Origin: a virus
DNA length: 24,834 nt
Strand: one strand, 5' to 3'
IMG/VR virus record: IMGVR_UViG_3300046740_000326
Location: 1-24,834 of that record
Under the pieces are notes generated by a model. The model was not told the origin of the DNA and did not search any database. It saw nothing but the letters and a program-made list of their open reading frames with translations. A program made the translations under genes and the position numbers. Positions 16,572-20,007 of this stretch are shown here, piece by piece. Every line of letters begins with the position of its first letter. Positions within the stretch are counted from its first letter, which is position 1.

Positions 16572-17336
16572 TTAGGCCTTGAGCGCGCGCCGACGCCGCT
16601 GGAACGCCCAGAGGCCCGCACACGCCGCGAACAGCCCAGGTAACCCGGCACCAGCAACCGGGCCGGGTACGGCCGCCGCTGATTGCGCGAAGAAGACAAA
16701 ACTGTCCGCTCCGTCGTTGGACGACATGCAGGTCCCACTCCCGAAGGTCTGGCCTTCAGCAGTAGTACCGCAGCCAAGGATGGCGTTGAGCCCGACCGTG
16801 AAGTTAGCCGAACCAGCCAATCCCAGGATGGTGTTGAACTCGGCCCTCTGTTGAGCGTCGAGCTCGAAGTCGAAAACGGCGTTGCCGTTTCCCTGTTGGA
16901 TGGCGAGAATGGCCGCGCTGAAGTCGATCGAAGACGCCAGCGCGAACGAGCCCACCGCATTGCCCGCGGTGTCCCAGATGGTGAGCCGCATGGCGTCGAG
17001 CGTGATGCCGGAGTTGCCGGTCTGGTTCGAGTTGAACCCGATGCCGACGTTAGCTCCCGAGTTCCAGCCCAACGCTCCGATGGTGGGAGTACCGCCCTTG
17101 TCAGCCCCGGCGATGGCCTCGTCCTGCAAGGCGTTGCCGAACAGGTGGGCGCCGAACTCGATGCCGTTGTTCTGCAAAGTCAAGGCCCGGTGGACGTTAC
17201 CGAACCCTGACGCACCAACGTCGACAAACGCGCCGAGGATGTCGCCTGCGCCGAAAAGGACGATGTCGGCTTGGGCAGGTGCGGTGAAGACAAGCGCCGT
17301 CGCGCTCGCCAGGGCCGCCAGTGTGAGACGTTTCAT
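16572..17336 (-). CDS. PEP-CTERM-type exported surface protein (moron)
   Basis: 254 aa. A Sec signal peptide (~1-23, ending APAQA-DIV) leads to a Gly/Asn-rich beta domain with repeated hydrophobic strands and two Cys (LGCGTTAEG, GTCMSS). The C-terminus has the three-part sorting tail: VPGPVAGAGLPG, a hydrophobic helix and a basic end QRRRRALKA. In PEP-CTERM proteins that tail is recognised by host exosortase and the protein goes to the surface or extracellular matrix. AAGGA lies 8 bases upstream. Only 30 bases separate it from the preceding gene, so it may share the left-operon transcript. Function unproven; its place in a phage is odd. Confidence 0.78.
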   Translation of the reverse strand: MKRLTLAALASATALVFTAPAQADIVLFGAGDILGAFVDVGASGFGNVHRALTLQNNGIEFGAHLFGNALQDEAIAGADKGGTPTIGALGWNSGANVGIGFNSNQTGNSGITLDAMRLTIWDTAGNAVGSFALASSIDFSAAILAIQQGNGNAVFDFELDAQQRAEFNTILGLAGSANFTVGLNAILGCGTTAEGQTFGSGTCMSSNDGADSFVFFAQSAAAVPGPVAGAGLPGLFAACAGLWAFQRRRRALKA

Positions 17337-18921: not shown

Positions 18922-19001
18922 TGCGGCCATTCTCCCGTGATCACGCGGACCATCAGCATTACGAAAACGAAAAAGAGGAACATCGCGAGCAGGATACTCA
19001 T
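18918..19001 (-). CDS. 27-aa single-pass membrane protein
   Basis: A tiny gene, almost entirely one transmembrane helix (MSILLAMFLFFVFVMLMVRV) with a short tail. Its ATG overlaps the stop of the 31-aa gene (ATGA), its TGA overlaps the ERF start, and AGGTG sits five bases upstream. The gap between HNH and ERF genes would otherwise be empty. Function unknown; possibly toxic or regulatory to the host membrane. Confidence 0.6.
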   Translation of the reverse strand: MSILLAMFLFFVFVMLMVRVITGEWPQ

Positions 19002-19093
19002 GCGAGCACCTGGACCAGCACCATCAGCGCGCCGACAAACATGACCAGCGCGAATATCGCGAGCAGGTCGGAAGCTTCACGATCGAGCGACAC
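18998..19093 (-). CDS. 31-aa single-pass membrane protein
   Basis: GTG start preceded by GGAG at 8 bases; a short charged N-terminus (SLDREASD) then one hydrophobic helix (LLAIFALVMFVGALMVLVQV). The stop overlaps the start of the 27-aa gene. The pair of coupled tiny membrane proteins sits between the tandem-repeat array and ERF. Confidence 0.55.
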   Translation of the reverse strand: MSLDREASDLLAIFALVMFVGALMVLVQVLA

Positions 19094-19108
19094 GGTAGTT
19101 TCTCCGGG

Positions 19109-19148
19109 TGTCAGGGTTTGTCGGGATTTGTCGCGATTTGTCGGCATT
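19109..19148. repeat. four tandem 10-bp repeats (consensus TGTCGGGATT)
   Basis: The units TGTCAGGGTT, TGTCGGGATT, TGTCGCGATT and TGTCGGCATT follow each other with exact 10-base period, about one helical turn, between the HNH gene stop and the 31-aa gene. The last unit runs into the HNH stop codon. The phasing would let a protein bind on one face of the DNA; on the transcript the complementary strand would read GACAAAUCCC-like repeats. Confidence 0.8.
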
Positions 19149-19665
19149 ATTCGGCGGTGAAGGTGGGATCGGAAACTTTGAGGCCGCGCGCGTAGCGGCG
19201 TGAATTTCGTGCTTGCTGCTGGGGCGTCGCCCAGCGAACATTTCCGGGTTCGTAGTGTCCGCCATTATCGATACGATCGACGGAATGGCGCAACGGCCTA
19301 GGTCCGATGTGAGCCAAGAACGCCGCAAAATTCTTGCGCCATTCCGGATGAATGCGGACACCTCGTGCGCCCCATCCGGAATAATCCTTCGATGATGGGT
19401 TTTCGCATCGTTGGATCATTGCGCACCAGCTGCGATATTCTGGAGTTCCAAACATCCCATGTTTGGTGGATGCCGCCTTAGTCTTTCTAATGCGTTCGCA
19501 TCGGCAAGATATTGTGTTTCCCGCGCGCAGATTGCCGGTAGTAACGGTCGTCTTTCGACCGCAATCGCATTGGCATTCCCAAGCGGCGTGAGCACCACGT
19601 TTCCCGGCCCTTTCAAGGACTGTCAAAAGGCCAAACCGCTCGCCGATCAGATCTGGAACCTTCAC
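19147..19665 (-). CDS. HNH homing-type endonuclease with captured C-terminal tail
   Basis: 172 aa, GTG start with GGAG 8 bases upstream, three bases after the previous stop. The N-terminal zinc-binding module has LIGERFGLLTVLERAG and Cys31/33/35 with Cys54/56 (WECQCDCG, ISCRC). Then come YRSWCAMIQRCENP, GWGARGVRIHPEWR and SVDRIDNGGHYEPGNVRWATP (128-148), which is the HNH/AP2-associated core of free-standing phage homing endonucleases. Such proteins cut DNA lacking the gene and spread it. Its last 15 residues, YARGLKVSDPTFTAE, resemble the end of the upstream protein and are not part of the usual HNH fold. Confidence 0.8.
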   Translation of the reverse strand: MKVPDLIGERFGLLTVLERAGKRGAHAAWECQCDCGRKTTVTTGNLRAGNTISCRCERIRKTKAASTKHGMFGTPEYRSWCAMIQRCENPSSKDYSGWGARGVRIHPEWRKNFAAFLAHIGPRPLRHSVDRIDNGGHYEPGNVRWATPQQQARNSRRYARGLKVSDPTFTAE

Positions 19666-19668
19666 GGG

Positions 19669-20007
19669 TCATTCTCCGGCGGAAAAAGATTTGTCAACGA
19701 CCCTGAGGCCACGCGTATATTCAGTCGAAGCATTGGCCTCGATGAAGTCGAGCAACGCGTCGGGGATCATGTCGCTTGCATCGAGCAGGTTCGCCACTTT
19801 GATCGCGATGTCCTCGGTCACGTCCCGCGACCAACCCTCAACCGGGTTGAAGGCAAACACCTTCATGACGCGCGTCAGGTTTCCGTTGATGATGTCGTCG
19901 ATCGTGGCCGCGCGGCTGCAGCTATCCTCAAGCGAGCGTTCGGCGAAGTAGCCGGCCGTCTCTTGGTGGGCGCAGAGGATCGCGTAGTGGGTCAGGTCAG
20001 AGGTCAT
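19669..20007 (-). CDS. small early protein, unknown
   Basis: 112 aa from an ATG with GAGG seven bases upstream, overlapping the methyltransferase stop. Helical and acidic (YFAERSLEDSCSRAATIDDII, VTEDIAIKVANLLDASDMIPDALLDFIE). The tail (YTRGLRVVDKSFSAGE) reappears at the end of the downstream HNH protein. The start word MTSDLTH is shared with the 72-aa gene at 20551. Function unknown. Confidence 0.65.
   Translation of the reverse strand: MTSDLTHYAILCAHQETAGYFAERSLEDSCSRAATIDDIINGNLTRVMKVFAFNPVEGWSRDVTEDIAIKVANLLDASDMIPDALLDFIEANASTEYTRGLRVVDKSFSAGE

Follow-up and report, generated by a model that had tools for sequence, protein, structure and literature searches.

An HNH endonuclease gene in a virus record probably entered the 3' end of a neighboring gene that encodes a 112-aa protein, brought a replacement for that end, and became fused to the native end that it displaced. 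The window analyzed here is the whole 24,834-nt stretch of DNA (positions 1 to 24,834 of the IMG/VR record IMGVR_UViG_3300046740_000326). At the sequence level, several observations support this reading: the tail is duplicated, HNH relatives lack it, the second copy is followed by the native flank, relatives show the site both occupied and empty, and other genes display the same anatomy. The coordinates and frames that the initial annotation gave for the 112-aa gene (20007-19669) and the HNH gene (19665-19147), both on the minus strand, were confirmed. The features are listed below, with C-terminal sequences given up to the stop codon here and throughout.

19669-20007, minus strand: 112-aa gene (the presumed invaded gene), an ORF that ends EYTRGLRVVDKSFSAGE and has close relatives in loci L080-L086.
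19669..19728, minus strand: probable replacement 3' end STEYTRGLRVVDKSFSAGE of the 112-aa gene (upstream copy, with YTRGLRVVDKSFSAGE); identity to orthologues falls at residues 93-102.
19147-19665, minus strand: HNH endonuclease gene, an ORF with a GTG start that ends RYARGLKVSDPTFTAE.
19195..19665, minus strand: HNH endonuclease proper (residues 1-157), a zinc-ribbon-like N-terminal part and the HNH core, matching phrog_374.
19147..19194, minus strand: putative native 3' end of the 112-aa gene, displaced and joined in frame to HNH, YARGLKVSDPTFTAE; assigned from its similarity to the neighbor and orthologues and its place on the native-flank side.
19109..19148, minus strand: 10-bp unit (TGTCGGGATT) in four imperfect copies between the HNH stop and the native flank, found by Tandem Repeats Finder.
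19091..19116, minus strand: native flank CCCTGACACCCGGAGAAACTACCGTG (TGACAMCCGGAGA flank), which contains the next gene's ribosome-binding site and GTG start and lies directly 3' of the 112-aa gene in HNH-free relatives.
18998..19093, minus strand: small ORF VSLDREASDLLAIFALVMFVGALMVLVQVLA, the conserved next gene, with the same ORF start in L082 and L084.

The window HNH protein matches phrog_374 (E 6e-59, residues 2-160) and phrog_3377 (E 4e-33), and the HSVDRID...GNVRW...QQARN motif identifies an HNH-type nuclease domain. Relatives of the protein occur at 79 viral loci, and most of the full-length matches stop at residues 154-157, as expected from the proposal in the initial annotation that HNH homologues would end before residue ~157. 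Some relatives terminate at ~157 (e.g., L011, ...QQQARNQRSRR), and others carry a different helix-turn-helix-like part beyond this point. Since the relatives mostly match residues 1-157 only, residues 158-172 of the window protein are regarded as an appendage.

This appendage resembles the C-terminus of the 112-aa protein, the stop codon of which lies three bases before the HNH start. The two tails, aligned as YTRGLRVVDKSFSA(G)E and YARGLKVSDPTFTA-E, share 9 identical and 3 similar residues, just as had been claimed, and 25 of 42 nucleotides (60%). Local alignment of both whole proteins gives a score of 50, which is reached by none of 3000 shuffles (fitted P ~2e-4) in a test that ignores the location of both matches at the extreme C-terminus. 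Among 2537 ORF tails from the window and the fetched contigs, the neighbor ranks first against the HNH tail (score 46), followed by its orthologues in L084, L083, and L082 (31-32), which are level with a few unrelated tails (30-31). The top rank of the neighbor, with its orthologues next, indicates that the HNH tail belongs to the neighbor's family. The match covers only 15-16 residues, as could be the case for two short C-termini that resemble each other by chance, but the shuffles and the ranking make a coincidence extremely improbable, and the flanks and the independent cases described below also speak against it.

The 112-aa protein has no match in Pfam or PHROG, and a tblastn search of the phage collection with it returned zero matches. 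Its seven close relatives (L080-L086) are 65-78% identical. Among 297 genomes of the bacterial family to which a Pseudolabrys genome belongs (Xanthobacteraceae), 61 contain distant relatives of the 112-aa protein; these are too distant to place the tail and were rejected as a tail reference.

The 3' ends of the close relatives should be noted, since the initial annotation proposed them as the place where the insertion could be checked. L080, L081, L085, and L086 have no HNH gene. Their 112-aa genes end EYAKGLRAAAE or EYAKGLRAAE at a stop codon of their own, which runs straight into CCCTGACAACCGGAGAAACTACCGTG, the sequence found 3' of the HNH gene in the window. The flank in these empty relatives reads TAACCCTGACAACCGGAGA(A/C)ACTACCGTG or CCCTGACAACCGGAGA(A/C)ACTACCGTG and comprises a ribosome-binding site and the start of the next gene. 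The four copies of the 10-bp unit at 19109-19148 were not seen in the sequences of the HNH-free relatives.

At the site that is occupied in the window, L084 has a different HNH gene. Its product matches the PHROG 374 / 3377 families and is 59% identical to the window protein over the HNH core only, with different accessory parts. The 112-aa gene of L084 ends YARGLRVE and the HNH gene starts seven bases on; the HNH gene ends ...KRSRAAE, followed by TAACCCTGACAACCGGAGAAACTACCGTG, which corresponds to the native 112-aa gene end and flank. This junction refutes a chance resemblance in practice. The site is therefore known in occupied (the window and L084) and empty (L080, L081, L085, and L086) alleles. 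Judging from these sequences, two different HNH genes at one site that appear to have displaced native ends as their C-termini and stop codons are hard to explain except by insertion near the 3' end with a new end supplied to the invaded gene. In L082 (positions 2392-2565), and also in L083, a small gene (MNIGDRITTLYEHSATGTIVRP...) lies between the 112-aa gene and the TGACAACCGGAG flank, indicating that the site accepts several kinds of insert.

Elsewhere in the window, a 254-aa protein (16572-17336, minus strand) begins like a signal peptide, and its C-terminal VPGP...GLPGLFAACAGLWAFQRRRRALKA segment is similar to a PEP-CTERM sorting tail. The protein is almost identical at L084:7352-8116 and, as predicted from its sequence, would be an unusual secreted protein for a phage.

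The origin of each copy was considered from the identity to the orthologues. The nucleotide identity of the 112-aa gene to L080, L082, and L085 is 0.76-0.79 over codons 4-92 versus 0.53-0.57 over codons 93-102, a drop that rests on 30 bases. The drop has P values of 0.0015-0.005 against L080 and L082 (binomial, gene-wide identity), but is not significant against L084 (P 0.16). L080, L082, and L085 are alike among themselves at codons 93-102 (23-30 of 30). When only the first six codons of the tail are compared, the HNH copy matches L084 better than the upstream copy does (15/18 versus 12/18), but it is not closer than the upstream copy to the other orthologues. The side on which the flank lies and the identity drop modestly favor the upstream copy as the newcomer and the HNH copy as the native end.

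An extension present in the two tails of the window, V-x-D-x-(S/T)-F-(S/T)-A, is seen in no relative. Such an extension is what would be left if the tail had been duplicated in place when the HNH gene was inserted, by a long target-site or tandem duplication with no foreign end, and had diverged later. However, the two tails are only 60% identical in DNA, versus 70-79% for the rest of the gene to other phages, and the two ends in L084 differ in sequence and length. A displaced tail at a topoisomerase gene, described below, is also far closer to other phages than to its neighbor. Duplication in place is thus improbable, and the supply of a foreign end is preferred.

The tails of all HNH-free relatives of the 112-aa gene fall ~6-9 residues short of the two in the window; consequently, no known empty allele has the last six to nine residues of either window copy. 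A search of viral contigs with a DNA pattern for DPTFTAE followed by a stop codon gave no match, i.e., no empty allele with the exact long tail of the window was found there. The model in the initial annotation, in which the inserted gene brought a replacement end and became fused to the displaced tail, appears partly supported by these sequences: the outcomes of the two checks proposed with it, L084, and the other genes described below are in its favor, while the ends of the long tails have no counterpart in empty alleles.

Around the HNH start, the region GCCGGAGAATGACCCGTG (19663-19680) is similar to CCGGAGAAACTACCGTG (19091-19107), the native region in which the next gene starts. From this similarity, the left copy looks as if the flank had once been included. 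One idea is that GGAGAATGACCCGTG of the left copy might have arisen from the native GGAGAAACTACCGTG start region through an internal deletion.

We surveyed 161 non-redundant nuclease loci by comparing the tail of the upstream gene with the nuclease end and the sequence following it, with mismatched pairs as the null. A second survey covered both flanks of 170 loci in all six frames, and cases were kept after inspection. In L046 (the same element is found in L050, L129, and L130), the gene for the large subunit of DNA topoisomerase II (phrog_543) ends FIMEKVDFTKIRE and is followed by a nuclease gene, which ends FILKKVDFSKVRE; the gene for the next topoisomerase subunit begins immediately. A tail of this kind is present in 80 of 80 related topoisomerase genes. 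The DNA of the displaced copy is identical at 36 of 39 positions to the native tails of L150 and L144, and at 35 of 39 to the tail of L148, whose core gene is the closest, versus 29 of 39 to the adjoining upstream copy. The difference between 36/39 and 29/39 indicates that the downstream copy is native and the upstream copy is foreign. This polarity is clear both at the topoisomerase gene and in L084.

In L133, the nuclease is 74% identical to that of L046, and its tail has decayed (FLYETIDYTELVLISEEINE), whereas the topoisomerase tail is conserved. Such decay is as expected for a useless remnant. This observation bears on whether the tail was gained from the neighbor by gene conversion and kept for a selected function of the nuclease (e.g., stability, DNA contact, or interaction). 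The tail is in frame in the window, L084, L046, and L264, consistent with such a function. The decay in L133, however, argues against it, as do the location of the tail beyond the nuclease stop in L069 and the lack of any such tail in most HNH relatives, and we consider a selected function very unlikely.

The same arrangement was found at other genes. In L264, a P22-type portal gene ends RPENPAAGINTGIEGGE and overlaps the HNH start, and the HNH gene ends RPSNPAVGMNAGIEGGEPALQ. Phage AP1, which has no HNH gene there, is an empty relative of L264: its portal gene ends SPAAGVNEGIETLRPDGVQ, and the flank that follows is similar. In L069, an RNA-binding protein (phrog_850) is encoded by a gene with the end MFDKLNEPRYNCIH, and MDKLNEERYACIK after the stop of a partly broken nuclease gene represents an unfused displaced tail. 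The nuclease of L069 (4985-5906) is readable only through in-frame TGA and TAG codons, which may mean that the gene has decayed or that the phage recodes stop codons. Two loci show the arrangement at a 5' end. In L004, a gene for a tail assembly chaperone on the opposite strand begins MGLSREQILAQKELRVERV, and the nuclease separates it from its old start, MSLTREHILAQKELRTETV; in L292, a remnant MTETINGIPQPVNVGEKYVKATWFTTAGSGTT precedes the nuclease and a complete uncharacterized gene (MTEIINGIPQPVDTSEVYIKATYFETVASGVTSGTITK...) follows it.

The arrangement is uncommon, amounting to a few per cent of the surveyed loci. It was found in none of 34 nuclease ORFs from cultured phages and 783 bacterial genomes, which likewise indicates that it is not frequent. 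Several candidates were rejected: the high scores of L055 and L070/L071 came only from a repeated zinc-ribbon domain that belongs to the nuclease itself, and the matches at several GC-rich loci were due to chance and lay in non-coding frames.

Displaced topoisomerase tails are also found after inserts that contain no nuclease, namely a 148-aa gene (L140), a glycosyltransferase-8 gene (L168; Pfam PF01501), and a 39-aa zinc-ribbon-like ORF (L182). These tails match those of other phages at 25/27, 26/27, and 27/27 positions, respectively, versus 20/27, 17/27, and 24/27 for the adjoining tail. These three loci show that the nuclease need not be the cause and that any gene can ride a cassette insertion by recombination within a gene end. 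The nuclease itself could then be a passenger: homologous recombination between phages in a conserved gene end would insert the cassette, make the upstream gene a hybrid, and displace the old tail. On the other hand, two different HNH genes lie at nearly one point in the window and L084, scar-bearing nuclease loci are found at several different genes, and the three cargo loci could be former nuclease sites. A passenger role is unlikely on balance, though it deserves more weight than any of the alternatives above, and insertion driven by the nuclease is preferred.

In the proposed mechanism, a free-standing HNH endonuclease gene would enter the last codons of the 112-aa gene, and the incoming DNA would bring its own version of the gene end (STEYTRGLRVVDKSFSAGE) directly before the HNH start, so that the invaded gene would stay complete. 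The resident end would be pushed downstream and, because the junction is in frame, would become the C-terminus and stop codon of the nuclease. The nuclease would cut the empty site, and repair from the donor phage would copy in the new tail by asymmetric co-conversion. The recoded tail would shield the occupied allele from its own nuclease; the DNA identity between paired ends (60-74%) is consistent with such protective recoding. We infer that repair of a nuclease-driven break or nick is the likeliest engine where the nuclease is present. Free-standing endonucleases of phages might use gene ends, 3' or 5', as a general route of entry into conserved, and even essential, coding sequence that is free of introns and inteins, with a recoded end that repairs the gene and resists cutting and an old end left as a fossil behind the nuclease or fused to it; we regard the chances of this generalization as evenly balanced.

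Free-standing homing endonucleases are generally described as confined to intergenic sites, since gene breakage would otherwise result (PMC13405050). A carried replacement end would lift this limit. Because the scar turns up in several unrelated viruses, it may reflect a general means by which these genes invade functional genes and leave them intact. End replacement would also account for unusual C-terminal extensions and for hybrid ends of phage genes, and the scar provides a readable record of past insertions, their polarity, and their target sites.

The Mob and Seg endonucleases of T4-like phages are similar in that their genes (HNH in the case of Mob) lie among phage genes without an intron or intein and home with co-conversion of the flanks; a difference is that they are described as located between genes or as splitting genes (PMC2988022). 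Under the terms searched, the text of that review and of a 2023 study of phage homing endonucleases (PMC10448857) contained no passage on duplicated or replaced gene ends and on replaced gene ends, respectively. No description of the arrangement in phages was found in the literature search, the partial coverage of which makes this weak evidence of absence. The window protein matches the HNH proteins of PHROG 374 / 3377, but lacks the C-terminal helix-turn-helix-like part of many relatives and has the displaced tail instead.

The closest parallel is provided by the mobile ORFs (mORFs) of fungal mitochondria, in which LAGLIDADG or GIY-YIG nucleases are located at the 3' end of atp6, atp9, cox2, and nad3 (PMC3630166). 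Insertion of a mORF gives the gene a foreign C-terminal end and leaves the native end downstream; Allomyces atp6 was the first case, and Glomus atp6, atp9, cox2, and nad3 are also reported (PMC3630166). In the window, L046, and L264, as in the Allomyces and Glomus mORFs, an endonuclease ORF sits at a gene's 3' end, and the C-terminal coding end occurs a second time behind it. The logic is therefore known, and the phage HNH elements appear to represent a version of mORF-like end replacement, in which the displaced end is often fused in frame, that has apparently not been described previously. They differ from mORFs in being HNH genes in a virus record rather than mitochondrial LAGLIDADG or GIY-YIG genes, and in the 5'-end versions seen in L004 and L292. 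In addition, the displaced end of the mORF-bearing atp6 is reported not to be expressed (PMC3630166), whereas that in the window is fused in frame to HNH.
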